Below the pieces are notes generated by a model that worked only from the letters and a program-made list of their open reading frames with translations, was not told the origin of the DNA and made no database searches. Both the position numbers and the translations under genes were made by a program. From Pelovirga terrestris (GTDB lineage Bacteria; Desulfobacterota; Desulfuromonadia; Desulfuromonadales; Geopsychrobacteraceae), in contig NZ_JACWUN010000009.1 in the NCBI RefSeq assembly GCF_014773365.1, positions 1 to 64,000 on the forward strand: a DNA stretch of 64,000 bases. Direction: 5' to 3'. The stretch's first letter is position 1. Every line of letters begins with the position of its first letter. Shown piece by piece: positions 2,885 through 21,090 of this stretch.

Positions 2885-5407
2885 ATGATTTCGGAACAGA
2901 ATAAAATATCGGTAAATATCGTCGACGAGATGCGTAAATCCTACATGGATTACGCTATGAGCGTCATTGTCGGCCGGGCCCTGCCGGATGTTCGTGATGG
3001 GCTTAAGCCGGTTCATCGCCGCATTCTTTTTGCTATGCACGATCTTGGCAATGAACATAACAAACCTTACAAAAAATCAGCAAGGGTCGTTGGTGATGTC
3101 ATCGGTAAATATCACCCCCATGGTGACAGCGCGGTCTACGACTCGATTGTCAGGATGGCTCAGCATTTTTCCATGCGTCACCCGCTGGTAGATGGTCAGG
3201 GAAACTTCGGTTCGGTTGATGGGGATTCTCCGGCGGCCATGCGTTATACCGAAATTCGTATGGATAAAATGGCCCAGGAACTGCTGGCCGATATCGACAA
3301 AGAGACCGTTGATTTTGGTCCTAATTATGACGAATCCCTGGTGGAACCTCTGGTGTTACCCTGTAAATTTCCCAATTTGCTGGTCAACGGATCAGAGGGG
3401 ATAGCGGTGGGAATGGCAACCAAGATCCCACCGCACAATCTCGGTGAGGTGATCGACGGCCTGATTGCGATCATTGATGATCCGCGTTTAGGCGTAGAAG
3501 AGTTGATGGATACCATTCATGGTCCGGATTTTCCCACGGCTGGATTTATTAATGGCAAAGAGGGCATCCGCGAGGCGTACAAGACTGGTCGCGGCATTGT
3601 TCAAATGCGCTCACGGGCCATGGTAGAAGTTGATCGACGCAGTGGGCGCGAAGCCATTGTGGTGACGGAAATTCCCTACCAGGTCAATAAGGCGCGGCTG
3701 ATAGAAAAAATCGCAGAGTTGGTGAAAAACAAGAAAATTGAGGGCATCTCTGATCTGCGGGATGAGTCCGACCGGGATGGCATGCGGATTGTCATCGAGT
3801 TGAAAAAAGACATGGTTGCCGGGGTTGTGCTCAACCAGTTGTATAAGATGACGGCGATGCAGTCTTCTTTTGGCATCATTATGCTGGCGATCGTAAAAGG
3901 GCAACCCAAAATTTTGACGTTACGCGAAGTTCTCGATAATTTTATCGATCATCGCCGTGAAATTGTTACCCGACGCTGTATTTTTGAGCTGAAAAAAGCG
4001 GAGGCCCGTGCGCATATTTTGCAGGGGTTGAAAATCGCCCTTGATCATCTTGATGAAGTGATTAATCTCATCAAAACCAGTGCCAACTCGCCGGAAGCCA
4101 AAGCCCGCTTAATGGAGCGTTTCGCTTTTACTGATATCCAGGCCCAAGCGATTCTGGATATGCGCCTGCATCGCTTAACCGGCCTCGAAAGGGAAAAGAT
4201 TCTTGAAGAACTGGCACAGGTTCTGGCACAGATTGAGCGGCTTAAAGAGATCCTCGCCAGTGAGGTTGAAATTCTTGCCATTATCAAGCAGGAATTGATT
4301 GACGTTAAAGAAAAGTTTGCCAACCCCAGACGCACCGAAATCATTGATCGTACCGCTGACCTGACCTTGGAGGATATGATTGTTGAAGAGGATATGGTGG
4401 TAACCGTGACCCACAGTGGTTATATCAAGCGCAATGCGGTTTCTCTCTATCGGGCGCAACGACGCGGCGGCAAGGGTCGCAGTGGCATGCGCACCAAGGA
4501 TGAAGATTTTGTTGAAAATCTTTTTATTGCCTCAACCCATTCCTACATCCTGATCTTTACCAATCTGGGTAAACTGTACTGGCTGAAGGTGCATGAAGTG
4601 CCACAGGGGGGGATGGCTTCGCGTGGTAAAGCGATTGTCAATCTGCTCGATCTAGCGCCGGATGAAAAGGTGACAACGATTCTGCCGGTGAAAAAGTTTG
4701 AGGAAGGGCGCTACATCGTTACGGCCACTGCCCGCGGTATCATCAAGAAAACCGATCTGATGGCTTATTCAAACCCTCGCAGTGGCGGTATTATCGCCCT
4801 GACGATTGACGAGGGGGATAGCCTGATTGAAGCACGTCTGACTGACGGCAACCGTGACCTTCTGCTGGCCAGCAGTAACGGCAAGTCGATTCGCTTTCCG
4901 GAAACCAATATCCGCTCCATGGGACGGACAGCACGCGGGGTGCGCGGAATTACCCTTGATCCCGATGATGAAGTTGTCGGTCTGCAATCGGTAACTGACA
5001 GCACCGCCATGGCGCTGGTAACAATAACTGAGCATGGCTATGGCAAGCGTACCGATATCGCCGAATATCGCGTCCAGAGTCGTGGTGGCAAAGGGATTAT
5101 TACCATCAAAACCAGTCAGCGCAATGGCCGGGTTGTAGCCATCAGGATGGTCGACGAAGATTCCGATCTGATGTTCATTACCAACCGTGGCAAAATGTTG
5201 CGGACCAAGGTGCGTAATATCCGCGCCATAGGACGCAACACCCAAGGGGTACGGATGATGGTTCTTGAAGCGGATGAATTCATCGTTTCTGTAGCCATGC
5301 TGGCGGAAAAGGATTCAGTTGATGAGTCTGGAGAGATTGAAGAAACAATTGAAGCAGGACTTGAAACAGAACCAGAAGCCCCAGCAGGCGACGAAGAACA
5401 GGAGTAG
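2885..5407 (+). CDS. gyrA: DNA gyrase subunit A
   Basis: DNA breakage-reunion subunit of gyrase. The N-terminus has [16 protein letters not shown], the catalytic tyrosine Y121 in [10 protein letters not shown], and the quinolone-resistance region [10 protein letters not shown], with S82 and D86 at the positions usually linked to drug resistance (both wild-type-like). The C-terminal beta-pinwheel carries a GyrA box QRRGGKG from residue 525 and repeated GG-rich blades, which marks GyrA rather than ParC. The start has a clear GGAGGA ribosome site. The protein ends in an acidic tail of mainly Glu, Asp and Ala. The bases for that tail also encode the basic N-terminus of the next gene in another frame, an overlap of about 86 bases. 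Confidence 0.98.
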
Positions 5408-7890: not shown

Positions 7891-8634
7891 ATGGCACGAT
7901 TCCGGGTCATGAGCTACGATCTGAACCATCAACGCAGTCGGTCGGGCGAATTGTGTGCGCAACTCTGTGGCCAGATGATACGGCAGCAGGGAGTTGACCT
8001 GGTACTGCTGCAACGGGTGGGATCGCCACAGGGTGAAACGTCCCTGCAGCGCCTGGCTGAGCGGGTTGGGTTAGCGGCTTATGGATCCGATAGTGAAGGC
8101 AGTTGCGCTTATTTATCACGTTATCCCCTGCACAATCTGCAAACCACACCTCTAGGCCATGACGACGTTTGTGTCCGGGCCGACTTTGATACCGCCTCTG
8201 AGCGCGTCCATCTGCTTAATCTGACCCTGAACTGGCACCCTAGCAAGCGTCTCAAGCAGGTGGCGAGGCTGCTTGGTGAAGAGCTGCTGGGCGGCCGCAG
8301 TTTCCCTTGTGCAACAATTATTGGTGGCGATTTCGGTCTTCCCCTGTGGGGTTGTGGACAAGTCGCATTTAATCCACAGATTGTGCGGGCAAAGCACCCA
8401 TTGTGGCGCGCAAATTATCCGGCAAAGTTCCCCCTCTGGGGGCGGGAACGCATCTATTTTCAAGGCCCCGTCACTGCCATAAGCGGCAGGATTATTACCA
8501 GCAAAGAGGCAAAAAGCACGTTAATTCAGCTGCCTCTGGTTGTTGATGTGGAAACCTGTGATACCCGCAAAGCCCTGCGCATCACAGAACAGGTCCGCCT
8601 CAACGCGAAACACCCCAAGCCTGTCTGTGGATAA
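7891..8634 (+). CDS. Endonuclease/exonuclease/phosphatase-fold protein with degraded active site
   Basis: 247 residues with the outline of the EEP (exonuclease III/DNase I-like) fold: an opening strand FRVMSYDLN, a VDLVLLQRVG strand, GSCAYLSRYPL, HLLNLTLNWHP, IIGGDFGLPLW and a final strand near LPLVVDVE. Each usual catalytic motif is changed. The first Asn of the NxN-type strand is Asp, the metal-binding Glu of LQE is Arg (LQR, residues 40-42), the GDFN motif is GDFG, and the SDHxP motif is not recognisable. It may be a non-catalytic relative or have another activity. The gene has a good ribosome site (AAAGGTGG) and clean coding structure, so it looks expressed. Related phospholipase-like EEP proteins exist, but I would not assign a reaction. 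Confidence 0.6.
   Translation: MARFRVMSYDLNHQRSRSGELCAQLCGQMIRQQGVDLVLLQRVGSPQGETSLQRLAERVGLAAYGSDSEGSCAYLSRYPLHNLQTTPLGHDDVCVRADFDTASERVHLLNLTLNWHPSKRLKQVARLLGEELLGGRSFPCATIIGGDFGLPLWGCGQVAFNPQIVRAKHPLWRANYPAKFPLWGRERIYFQGPVTAISGRIITSKEAKSTLIQLPLVVDVETCDTRKALRITEQVRLNAKHPKPVCG
8353..8361 (-). promoter_or_regulatory. DnaA-box-like 9-mer, one mismatch
   Basis: TGTGGACAA on the plus strand is the reverse complement of TTGTCCACA, one mismatch from the DnaA consensus TTATCCACA. It lies inside the EEP-like gene, and a near match (TTAATCCACA, one extra base) follows 7 bases later. On its own it is weak; it is listed because two more lie at 8626-8653. Confidence 0.25.
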
Positions 8635-8653
8635 GTTGATGAAATGTGGACAA
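8626..8653 (-). promoter_or_regulatory. Pair of DnaA-box-like sites upstream of nth
   Basis: TGTGGATAA (8626-8634) is a perfect complement of the DnaA box TTATCCACA and also forms the last codons and stop of the EEP-like gene. TGTGGACAA (8645-8653) follows 19 bases later in the same orientation with one mismatch. They sit 27 bases before the nth start and about 8 kb from recF/gyrB, so a DnaA-controlled promoter or a titration site is possible. There is no AT-rich unwinding region here, so I do not call an origin. Confidence 0.35.
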
Positions 8654-15080: not shown

Positions 15081-15081
15081 G

Positions 15082-15104
15082 CCAAAAGCAGACTTGACAC
15101 CCTA
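15082..15104 (+). repeat. REP-like sequence related to the tyrosine transposase termini
   Basis: GCCAAAAGCAGACTTGACAC with CC following closely resembles the right terminus of the transposase element at 20407-20431 (AGCCAAAGGTAGACTTGACC), with one extra base before CCC. It abuts repeat copy A directly. It is possibly a non-autonomous REP unit mobilised by this transposase family. Confidence 0.5.
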
Positions 15105-18065: not shown

Positions 18066-18555
18066 TGTTGCTTCTTTCCTTTAACGGTTCCAATAGAAAA
18101 AGACCACCGAGTCGAACCCTGTGGCCTTCGTGCTGCCAAGCTATATCATTTCTTGCGAGCATGAACAAGGTTCAAGTGCAATGGGCTATTTTTAGTTCTG
18201 ATTTTTAACCGCCTTTTCTGGCAATAAAAACCTGGAAGTACTCTTTTAATATGATTATTTTGTTTTCCATAAGCATTGGCTTGTGATAGTGTTGCCTAGC
18301 TTTATTCACCTCTAAATGAAAATACCGCACACCTTTCAGCTCCAACGCCGTCAAACGCAAATATTTTCAAACTAGGCTGATGAGGTTTTTCTACTCTCAG
18401 TTTTGCTGACTGAAATTGCTTATATGAACTGAATAACTTAGGGAAGCGCGGTGCTTCCCGTTTCACGTTTCACCTTACACAGGGAGGATTTAAGATGGTT
18501 CTCTTTCAGATCGTGTGGGTAACAGCAGTTCATTGTCGTTCTTCAAGTACCTTCT
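18066..18555. other. 490-bp gap between the ABC-F gene and the transposase remnant
   Basis: There is no open frame with a recognisable product. It holds a GGGAAGC/GCTTCCC hairpin (18441-18459). Bases 18530-18555 can be read as a continuation of the ISL3 protein in another frame. It presumably carries the ABC-F promoter and one end of the old insertion sequence; I could not find a convincing terminal repeat. Confidence 0.5.
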
Positions 18556-19401
18556 TCAACCACAACATCTTGTGATGAAGGGTGGTGCCGGGAGATGGAC
18601 AAGTTTGCCGGCGACCAAGTAGGCCATGGTGATCAAATGACGGACCGTTCCATAACCCCTGGCTCTGGCTTTAGCTGCCTGAATGAGGCCGTTGACTCCT
18701 TCAACACCGCCGTTGTTCAGGTGCCCGTCAAACCAGGACAGGATGCCGTTCCAGTGGCGCCGAATGGTTTTGGCAGCGTCTTTCATCGGCTCCAGTCGAC
18801 AGCGGATCGCCCAATTGTACCAACGGCTCAAGGCCGTCTCGGCATCGGTAAGCGTTTGACACTGTTGGTAGATCTCCTGCAATGAGGTCTTGATCTGCCA
18901 GGCTCTGGCCGTTTTCAGGCGACTTTTTGGCAAACTGTCAAAGTGCTCCTGCTGCCGTTGCGTGCGGTTCGCTTCATTGCGCAACCACAGGTAACGGGTC
19001 TTTTTCAGCAGGGGTTCGGTCTTCGCCTCCTGCCGTCGTACCAGATCCACGGCCTTGTTAACGATGGCCATGACATGAAACGGGTCGAAGGTGATGTCGG
19101 CATTGGGTAACCACTCACCAACGCCAGCAATATAGCTTTTCGACATATCAATACAGACAGAATCAACGTTTTCGGTTTGACCGCCATGAGCTTCAAGATC
19201 TTTGACAAATGCTGCAACCACAGCTTTATCACGACCTTCACAGGCAAACAGCAGGCGCTTCTGATCCAGGTCATGAAAGAGACTGATATAGTTGTGGCCA
19301 CGTCGTGAAGCGGTTTCATCCAGGCCGACACTTTGGACGCTGGAGAAATCTTCCCGTTGCCGGGCGGCCTCGACATAATGATCGAAAAGCGATGGGGTCA
19401 A
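18556..19401 (-). pseudogene. ISL3-family transposase, N-terminally truncated
   Basis: 281 residues of an ISL3 DDE transposase, whose family usually has about 400. Present are VGLDETASRRGHNYISLFHD with the first catalytic Asp, CIDMSKSYIAGVGEWLPNADITFDPFHV with the second, and the final Glu region NGGVEGVNGLIQAAKARARG. The N-terminal zinc-finger and helix-turn-helix part is missing: the coding sequence runs straight into the inverted repeat of the tyrosine-transposase element at 19395, with a stop inside that repeat. At the C-terminus the current frame ends ITRCCG, while another frame continues LHHKMLWLKKVLEERQ to a stop near 18530, suggesting a frameshift too. It is most likely dead. Confidence 0.8.
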
Positions 19402-19419
19402 GTCTGCCGTTGGCTTTTA
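19395..19419 (+). repeat. Left terminal inverted repeat of the transposase element
   Basis: GGGTCAAGTCTGCCGTTGGC plus TTTTA. It matches the complement of 20407-20431 at about 23 of 25 positions and resembles the solo copy at 15082-15104. Confidence 0.75.
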
Positions 19420-19447
19420 TTTCAATATCTGATATCAATCATCCATT

Positions 19448-20422
19448 ATGAGCAGACCACTTCGCATTGAATTTTCGGGGGCGTGGTACCACGCCATGAA
19501 TCGGGGCCGCAGAAGAGAAAACATTTTTCTTCAGTCGGATGATTTTGAAGCGTTTCTGAACATCGTGCGTGAATCGGCAGATCGGTGGAATGTGCACGTG
19601 GCGGCTTACTGTTTGCTGTCCAATCACTATCACCTGCTGCTACAGACTCCGGAAGGCAATCTGGCGCGTTGCATGCGCCACATCAATGGTGTTTATACCC
19701 AGCGATTCAATCGTATCCACGGGCAAGACGGGCAACTGTTTCGGGGACGCTACAAAGCCGTTCTGGTCGAGGATGACAGCCATCTACTCGAAGTCATGCG
19801 CTATATCCATCGCAATCCGCTTAACGCCGGCCTGGTCCGGCATCTCGATGAATATCCCTGGAGCAGCCACACGGGGTACCTGTCCTGCGCAAAACAATGG
19901 AACTGGTTGGAGCGCGAGACGCTGCTGACCATGCTAACAACGAAGAAGTCGCAGCGCAAACAGGCCTATCTCGATTTTGTCTCCCAAAACGAACCGCAGC
20001 AAATCTCTTCTTTCTATGCGATGAAGAAGCTTGCCTCACTGCTGGGAGGCGAAGCGTTCAGGGATTGGGTCAGTCATCGTTTCGTCGATCTTGAATTGCA
20101 GCGGGAAATTCCGGAAGCAAAAAAATTGGCGAATACTCCGCAAGGAATCATCGTTCAGGTCTGTGCCTATTTCGACCAGGATGAAGCGCGTTTGCGACAC
20201 TCACGGCGTGGAATAGAAAACCTGCCGCGAGATATCGCCATCTATCTGGCGCGCAGCACCAGCCGGATGACGCTTGGCGAGATTGGTGCAGTGTTCGGCG
20301 TGGCCAACTACAGCACCGTCAGCAGCGCGGCCGAGCGAATCAAGATCCGCATGGCCAAGGATGCCCGCCTGCGGCAGGATGTTGAAAGCCTCAAACAACT
20401 ACTCGCTAAAAGCCAAAGGTAG
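19448..20422 (+). CDS. REP-associated Y1 tyrosine transposase with DnaA domain IV-like C-terminus
   Basis: 324 residues. The N-terminal Y1/HUH transposase domain (about 1-145) begins MSRPLRIEFSGAWYHAMNRG, has the HUH motif HYH (60-62, in LLSNHYHLLLQT) and a candidate catalytic tyrosine Y119 in VMRYIHRNPLNAGLV, the RAYT hallmark. The C-terminal part (about 230-315) resembles DnaA domain IV: RRGIENLPRDIAIYLAR, then MTLGEIGAVFGVANYSTVSSA, like the box-binding helix-turn-helix of DnaA. Such fusions are known among RAYT proteins. The frame is intact and ends just inside the right inverted repeat, so it may be active. It would excise and paste single-stranded DNA at REP hairpins (family knowledge). 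Confidence 0.88.
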   Translation: MSRPLRIEFSGAWYHAMNRGRRRENIFLQSDDFEAFLNIVRESADRWNVHVAAYCLLSNHYHLLLQTPEGNLARCMRHINGVYTQRFNRIHGQDGQLFRGRYKAVLVEDDSHLLEVMRYIHRNPLNAGLVRHLDEYPWSSHTGYLSCAKQWNWLERETLLTMLTTKKSQRKQAYLDFVSQNEPQQISSFYAMKKLASLLGGEAFRDWVSHRFVDLELQREIPEAKKLANTPQGIIVQVCAYFDQDEARLRHSRRGIENLPRDIAIYLARSTSRMTLGEIGAVFGVANYSTVSSAAERIKIRMAKDARLRQDVESLKQLLAKSQR

Positions 20423-20431
20423 ACTTGACCC
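20407..20431 (-). repeat. Right terminal inverted repeat of the transposase element
   Basis: TAAAAGCCAAAGGTAGACTT then GACCC. It is the inverted partner of 19395-19419 and overlaps the last codons and stop of the transposase gene. Confidence 0.75.
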
Positions 20432-20494
20432 TTTCATTGACCCCTTCATACGAGATGATGTATCCAGAATTCTTTCTATATCAGGCTTGTTTTT

Positions 20495-20543: not shown

Positions 20544-20768
20544 ATGCTCGCCGAGAAAGTCTCCATCTCTCTACCTACGCCATTACTTGAATTTGTCGAG
20601 CACTATAAAGAGAGCCACGCGCTCAAAAGCCGTTCCAAGGTGATTGAGATGGCGCTGGAACGTTTGCAGCAGGAAAGCCTGGAGGCCGCCTATCGCCAGG
20701 CCGCAGCAGACGTGGATCCCGCCTTTGATGCTACCAATGCAGACGGATTGCGCAATGAAACGTGGTGA
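20544..20768 (+). CDS. Ribbon-helix-helix antitoxin (MazE-like partner)
   Basis: 74 residues: an N-terminal ribbon-helix-helix DNA-binding fold (EKVSISLPTPLLEFVEHYKESHALKSRSKVIEMALERLQQ) and a flexible acidic C-terminus likely to bind the toxin. It overlaps the toxin gene by 14 bases, has a strong AAGGAGG site and follows a palindromic operator. It should neutralise the adjacent MazF-type RNase and repress its own operon. It belongs to the RHH-type partners (MazE9/CopG-like) rather than AbrB-type MazE. It lies just downstream of the transposase element, a usual setting for mobile toxin-antitoxin modules. Confidence 0.85.
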   Translation: MLAEKVSISLPTPLLEFVEHYKESHALKSRSKVIEMALERLQQESLEAAYRQAAADVDPAFDATNADGLRNETW

Positions 20769-21090
20769 GATTTACTACGCCGATCTCAGCCCCACTCTGG
20801 GCGCTGAGATCAACAAAAAAAGGCCCGTGCTTATTGTCAGTTGCGACGCGAACAACCGTGCCGCCGAAACGGTTACCATTCTGCCGATTACTTCGAACAC
20901 GACCAGGATTTATCCCTTTGAGGTGTTTCTCAAACCGCAGGAATCAGGCCTGCCGAAACCATCCAAGGCCCAAGCCCAGCAAATTCGCACTATTTCAAAG
21001 GAACGTATTTCCGGCAAGGCTCAAGGCTGCCTTGACCGGGCACGGTTGACGGCAATTGACGCGGCGTTACGAATCCATCTGTCCTTATGA
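20755..21090 (+). CDS. mazF: MazF/PemK-family endoribonuclease toxin
   Basis: 111 residues. Family marks are the opening KRGEIYYADLSPTLGAEINK, then KRPVLIVSCDANNRAAETVTILPITSN and the later PSKAQAQQIRTISKERIS, where conserved Arg and Ser/Thr positions of MazF cluster. It cleaves mRNA at short motifs when free of antitoxin (family knowledge). The start is the ATG at 20755 inside the antitoxin gene. An in-frame start at 20644 would add 37 residues without family match and is rejected. The frame is intact. Confidence 0.9.
   Translation: MKRGEIYYADLSPTLGAEINKKRPVLIVSCDANNRAAETVTILPITSNTTRIYPFEVFLKPQESGLPKPSKAQAQQIRTISKERISGKAQGCLDRARLTAIDAALRIHLSL

Follow-up and report, generated by a model that had tools for sequence, protein, structure and literature searches.

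A one-gene TIRtron from Pelovirga terrestris with a DnaA-like transposase module, and a tandem stutter at the ends of its relatives

A window of 64,000 nucleotides of Pelovirga terrestris DNA (the whole stretch analysed: contig NZ_JACWUN010000009.1, positions 1 to 64,000) contains a one-gene transposable element, a TIRtron of about 1.04 kb, whose transposase ends in a DnaA-like module. From the sequences compared here, a probability of about 0.5 is given to the reading in which this module would recognize the element's own ends, the Y1 part of the enzyme would handle their tip, and nicking, copying and rejoining would produce a short tandem repeat beside them. This repeat, here termed the stutter, consists of 4–12 nt of host flank plus the tip GGGGTC(A), standing as an exact tandem copy directly before that flank and the complete end. 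It resembles a scar left when the enzyme cuts DNA and joins it again. It also looks new as a feature of TIRYT-type ends; no description of it was found in the literature searched, including the available portions of PMC3733652.

The initial annotation of the gene described a tyrosine transposase with the HUH motif HYH and a tyrosine at position 119, fused to a C-terminal region resembling the box-binding domain of DnaA, and these features are confirmed by profile matches, alignment and modelling (Table 1). H60, Y61, H62 and Y119 are invariant among 39 aligned transposase sequences (39 of the 43 rows studied, which comprise the window element and 42 related loci). Pfam Y1_Tnp matches residues 11–123 with 51.8 bits (cut-off 23), and Bac_DnaA_C matches residues 233–298 with 40.3 bits (cut-off 31.5). 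In an AlphaFold2 model built on these 39 sequences (mean pLDDT 88.7), residues 229–321 superimpose at 1.4 Å over 93 residues (Z 16.5) on 1j1v, the structure of E. coli DnaA domain IV bound to its box. The structural comparison with domain IV that had been proposed as a check thus comes out in favor of the likeness, with a helix-turn-helix present in the modelled module and the basic-loop arginine kept.

Table 1. Features of the element and its immediate surroundings in the window
Feature	Position	Strand	Basis or remark
Y1 (HUH) transposase with DnaA-like C-terminus, 324 aa	19448..20422	+	ORF, profile matches, alignment
Y1_Tnp domain, residues 11–123, including H60, H62 and Y119	19478..19816	+	Pfam, alignment, model
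DnaA-domain-IV-like module, residues 229–321	20132..20410	+	Pfam, model
Left terminal inverted repeat, tip GGGG 19394–19397	19394..19419	+	counterparts in 34 loci
Right terminal inverted repeat, tip AGGG (one change)	20407..20432	-	
Right-end stutter, 12-nt tandem repeat TTGACCCTTTCA / TTGACCCCTTCA on the + strand	20425..20448	-	period 12
Solo copy of the end	15081..15104	-	15081–15100 with 1 mismatch; GGG tip
ISL3 transposase remnant (and sequence past its stop), broken at the element's left end	18497..19393	-	

The 25-bp inverted repeats that had been reported at the gene edges are present at 19395–19419 and 20407–20431 with 92% complementarity, the right one overlapping the final codons and stop of the gene. 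A search of the window with GGGTCAAGTCTGCNNTTGGC at up to 3 mismatches finds three sites, both ends and 15081–15100, where 0.05 would be expected, and the related solo end previously placed at 15082–15104 is credible. The labelling of these sequences as REPs of a RAYT does not hold, the element being bounded by terminal inverted repeats whose tip is GGGGTCA and not by GTAG-tagged hairpins; the left end, taken as single-stranded DNA, folds no better than its shuffles (z −0.32). Hairpin (REP-like) ends formed by a GTCAA...TTGAC palindrome were considered and rejected, the seven ends folded giving z-scores of −3.9, −2.5 and five values between −1.04 and 0.13, that of the window end among the five. 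On its left the element adjoins an ISL3 transposase that is broken at this point: a relative of the ISL3 transposase at locus L114 continues where the element starts, and tblastn with that protein places its C-terminal 275 residues at 19383–18559 (83%), its N-terminal part having no convincing match in the window (best E 0.36). On the other side the element adjoins, at 20544–21090 (+), a 74-aa ORF and a gene for a PemK/MazF-like toxin (104.8 bits), a two-gene unit with the appearance of a type II toxin-antitoxin pair. The 3.10-Mb host genome has a single copy of the element at the DNA level; the transposase has five protein matches there (the window's own included), and a second DnaA-like C-terminus outside dnaA lies on contig C3. 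No family of ends is apparent in this genome at up to 3 mismatches (116 + 103 sites versus 133 + 103 for the reversed-pattern control).

Part of this picture is established. The fusion of a transposase to a DnaA-like domain and the idea of targeting to the replication fork are already published (PMC3733652 and PMC6006769, in the sections available). The TIRYT/TIRtron class was named in 2013 (Di Nocera, PMC3733652) and, in the excerpts of that paper, comprises RAYT-like Y1 transposases lying between terminal inverted repeats, with no REPs, the ends being dispersed as well in some genomes. The window element shares these characters: its protein is a RAYT-like Y1 transposase with HUH motif and tyrosine, and its gene lies between terminal inverted repeats, as do those of the other rows with recognised ends. 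The motif GGGGWSAS, which the same excerpts give for some but not all TIRYT ends and not as a defining trait, fits the window end GGGGTCAA at 7 of 8 positions. A Bac_DnaA_C C-terminus was stated in 2018 for TnpAREP subclass 2.1 (Quentin, PMC6006769); the portions available also remark that the terminal inverted repeats are unlike DnaA boxes, and they name the fork as a possible target of the domain. A C-terminal Bac_DnaA_C or HTH extension is what the window element, at its 40.3 bits, has in common with subclass 2.1.2 (PMC6006769, same portions), in which it is placed by its domain make-up rather than by the published tree. The additions made here to that subclass are tests of origin bias, of contact residues and of covariation with the ends, together with the stutter. 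Compared with RAYT/TnpAREP proteins that act with GTAG REPs (4er8), the window protein has the same Y1 fold (modelled residues 1–190; Z 17.7, 2.2 Å over 156 residues) and matches NCBIfam REP_Tyr_transpos (80.1 bits, cut-off 80), but it carries an extra C-terminal module, and its ends have a GGGG tip instead of a GTAG tag, with a weak or absent hairpin at the left end. With IS200/IS605 it shares the HUH motif and the single catalytic tyrosine, whereas those elements have subterminal hairpins in place of inverted repeats, and transpos_IS200 scores 14.5 bits, below its cut-off of 55.

A pattern-seeded scan of contigs yielded 61 related loci, by title mainly deltaproteobacterial. Ends are recognised in 35 of the 43 rows; in the other eight (L005, L006, L010, L012, L013, L032, L033 and L035) the best inverted repeat has no tip, and these were left out of the end set. 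The common end of the 35 elements is GGGGTCAAGTCT-NNNN-TTGAC, and their span is exactly 1,036 bp in 16 and 1,032–1,042 bp in 27. At the four variable bases agreement is 0.90 within elements versus 0.38 between them (31 elements; permutation p 0.0002). In 7 of 14 genomes tested, copies of the end are more numerous than matches to the reversed-pattern control, most strongly so in the single-contig genome G091 (23 versus 1, the elements' own ends counted). Many ends of wider relatives read GGGGTCAG; the wider set comprises 27 loci, of which four have no ORF by the rule applied, one (L108) has a wrong ORF and several are without clear ends. Five relatives have a C-terminus with HTH-type matches (one above its curated cut-off) and no DnaA match; an exact GGGGTCA tip is found at both ends in three of them and at one end in two, the other end showing one change, and their inner end differs from that of DnaA-type elements. 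Among 24 plasmid records no relative reaches 60% identity and only two cover 80% of the query; a single phage record matches the transposase, and the viral contigs searched contain no matching stretch.

Several further observations concern this wider group. The proteins of L109 (1041–2444, +) and L111 (1266–2627, +) carry one more domain after the Y1 and DnaA-like parts, a nucleotidyltransferase (Pfam Polbeta; 61.9 bits in L109 and 61.5 in L111, cut-off 26.9). Locus L134 (G012:C2:1386103–1386397) consists of two inverted ends 295 bp apart with no gene between them and is MITE-like. Double tips of the GGGGTCAGGTC type are abundant in genomes G325 (37) and G302 (21), several of them forming closely spaced inverted pairs that resemble REPIN-like dimers. 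Immediately outside the tip, positions −3, −2 and −1 are A-rich (A 0.61, 0.71 and 0.77 in 154 ends from L002–L062, L094–L112 and L124–L143), so that the end may start at AAA or the target may be A-rich.

The stutter is frequent and far above chance. Among 154 non-redundant ends not selected for it, 25 have an exact stutter (a run of at least the period minus 1, with periods up to 45 allowed; the count includes one low-complexity case, L016, period 9), against a mean of 0.065 and a maximum of 1 in 200 shuffles of the flanks; the flank part of these 25 measures 4–12 nt. In the same sequences the feature occurs at 105 of 40,000 random positions and at 6 of 1,586 GGGG sites without a following TC. 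Of 395 genomes of the phylum, 14 had double tips in one pattern search and 32 in another, and among the matches listed for these genomes there were none of the reversed pattern. Double tips collected from further genomes are exact tandem repeats in 34 of 55 cases and inexact in 21, where the control mean is 0.72 and the maximum 3 in 500 shuffles. Pooling all ends gives 58 exact cases among 224 (run at least equal to the period), a figure that is not a rate because the pool includes loci chosen for their double tip. Left, right and solo ends all show stutters, which also occur in a single-contig genome and at L152, an element with an HTH-type C-terminus. The window's own right end has one at 20425–20436 / 20437–20448, its unit being the flank TGAA plus the tip; it is identical at 11 of 12 positions and was left out of the exact cases because of the one substitution.

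Of the 58 exact cases the junction overlap is 0, 1 and 2 nt in 26, 18 and 12, none has an overlap of 3–10 nt, and two multi-copy arrays have 11 or 14 nt; the 2-nt overlaps are about twice as frequent as chance (about 6 expected, by estimate). The part of the end that is copied measures 7 nt in 16 of 26 unambiguous cases, 6 nt in 4 and other lengths in 6. The position of the cut in the flank is variable, with no clear consensus. Some longer units copy the whole end, namely those at L125 (33 nt, stopping right after TTGAC), L141 and L048.

Cleavage by an HUH enzyme yields a 3'-OH and a 5'-phosphotyrosine. An enzyme docked on its end might nick single-stranded DNA 4–12 nt outside the tip and become linked to the 5' side; a polymerase would extend the free 3' end across flank and tip, halting at GGGGTC(A) where the end is occupied and sometimes passing beyond it; the new 3' end would then attack the phosphotyrosine and the junction would be sealed. 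Each cycle would add one unit of flank plus tip, and each run-through a whole unit of flank plus end. That the TIRYT ends hold a genomic record of such events, with the flank nick of the HUH tyrosine priming short synthesis that stops at the enzyme-bound tip, is offered tentatively, at somewhat less than even odds. It is supported by the exactness of the stutters, by overlaps of no more than 2 nt in 56 of 58 cases and by the break at 6 or 7 nt in 20 of 26; the variable flank cut, the 21 inexact double tips, the six breaks elsewhere, the surplus of 2-nt overlaps and the eight rows lacking recognised ends count against it. In vitro, TnpAREP cleaves beside its repeat and joins DNA by strand transfer from a 3'-OH, and replication priming has been named as a possibility for it (PMC8266576, in the passages available).

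Two other origins must be weighed against priming by a flank nick. The enzyme could cut one strand after GGGGTC(A) and another in the flank, the two being joined by exchange between sister strands, in which case the tip would be the cleavage site itself and no synthesis would be needed. The nearly fixed break in the end, seen also at ends without a hairpin, would suit this scheme, and related TnpAREP proteins cleave at CT and in one instance CA dinucleotides (PMC8266576, same passages), GGGGTC/A being a CA step; the unambiguous breaks, however, lie mostly after A (16) and less often after C (4), and the whole-end units at L125, L141 and L048 are more simply explained by copying. This double-cut scheme is judged unlikely. 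Alternatively, replication might slip where a hairpin or a bound protein obstructs the end. Such slippage would require no cleavage by the transposase, and it could draw on the hairpins of two of the seven ends tested, on the possibility that a bound module stalls a fork and on the slight excess of 2-nt overlaps. It fits poorly with the lack of 3–10 nt overlaps, with flanks restricted to 4–12 nt although much longer periods were allowed, and with double tips at AGGTC-type ends, including one that gave no stable hairpin on folding; slippage is accordingly considered quite improbable.

If the enzyme acts at these ends, the question arises of what its DnaA-like module reads. The DNA contacts of E. 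coli DnaA, which we take to be R399 in the basic loop together with D433, H434, T435 and H439, correspond in the window transposase to R254, N287, Y288, S289 and S293. The arginine is kept in 38 of 39 sequences, but H434 is replaced by Y in 35, T435 by S in 38 and H439 by S in 33, and the E. coli stretch DHTTVLHA reads NYSTVSSA. The likeness to box-binding domain IV covers the fold and the arginine, with TTATCCACA as the candidate target proposed in the initial annotation; the window protein also differs from DnaA in having no AAA+ part. The ends themselves point elsewhere, with no DnaA box in the first 30 nt of any of 224 ends. When the N-domain is held constant, distance between ends correlates with distance between C-terminal modules (partial Mantel r 0.33, p 0.0005; 31 elements), and much less with the N-domain when the module is held (r 0.115, p 0.085). 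The middle region correlates with the end too (0.197 given N, p 0.016; 0.129 given C, p 0.091), so that the result is not exclusive to the module, and the distances still carry phylogenetic signal. On the simplest view the module would recognize the inner half of the ends of its element in a sequence-specific way, and we infer that the GGGGTCA tip shared by these ends is handled by the Y1 part.

The initial annotation had instead suggested that the module might direct the transposase to DnaA boxes, to the origin region or to the replication fork. Its fusion of a Y1 transposase with a domain IV fold stands, and that fold with its conserved basic-loop arginine is what favors such targeting, together with three DnaA boxes in the 60 nt outside the 224 ends where 1.13 are expected (Poisson P 0.11). 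The element seemed origin-linked because the window holds a recF-like tail, gyrB and gyrA, and of this context gyrB (452–2842), gyrA (2885–5407) and the resemblance of the window's start to a recF tail are borne out by inspection; the host dnaA, however, lies on a separate contig and at its edge (G000:C42:5–1033, −), where only profile positions 1–339 of 437 are visible and domain IV is absent from the assembly. The DnaA-box-like sites placed at 8353–8653 come down to one (8626–8634) of six TTWTNCACA sites in the window, and such sites are not clearly enriched there (3.76 expected; at least six in 12 of 100 shuffles). Apart from dnaA itself, nine genomes together have 22 matches to the C-terminal part of the DnaA profile (counted irrespective of an intact Y1 domain). 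On a scale from 0 at dnaA to 1 at the opposite side of the genome, these show no origin bias (mean 0.53, KS p 0.39; eight genomes are single contigs and G080 has two, with exact lengths used except for G007, G055 and G075), nor do the 19 left after neighbours are collapsed (p 0.68). A variant without two partial matches and with rounded genome lengths gives 20 genes, mean 0.56 and KS p 0.15. Mapping of the end copies relative to the origin, which had been proposed, likewise reveals no bias for the 10 end clusters of the complete genome G091 (mean 0.52, p 0.82), and the host genome has no end family to map. The GGGGTCA tip is moreover common to relatives with another HTH. With the contacts replaced, no box in the ends and no bias of position towards dnaA, there is no support for targeting to the origin or to DnaA boxes, and the annotation's reading as a whole, fork included, is regarded as very improbable; the module most likely binds the ends of the element that encodes it, and not the origin.

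The fusion is suggestive, but soberly viewed a DnaA-like domain carried by a transposase would most likely be an ordinary end-binding domain. The end signature is common and easily searched, and its nearly fixed break and scant junction homology make a cycle of cutting, copying and joining directly testable. If such a cycle operates, these Y1 enzymes would be replicative at their ends, and run-through copying would multiply dispersed single-end repeats, perhaps REPs among them.
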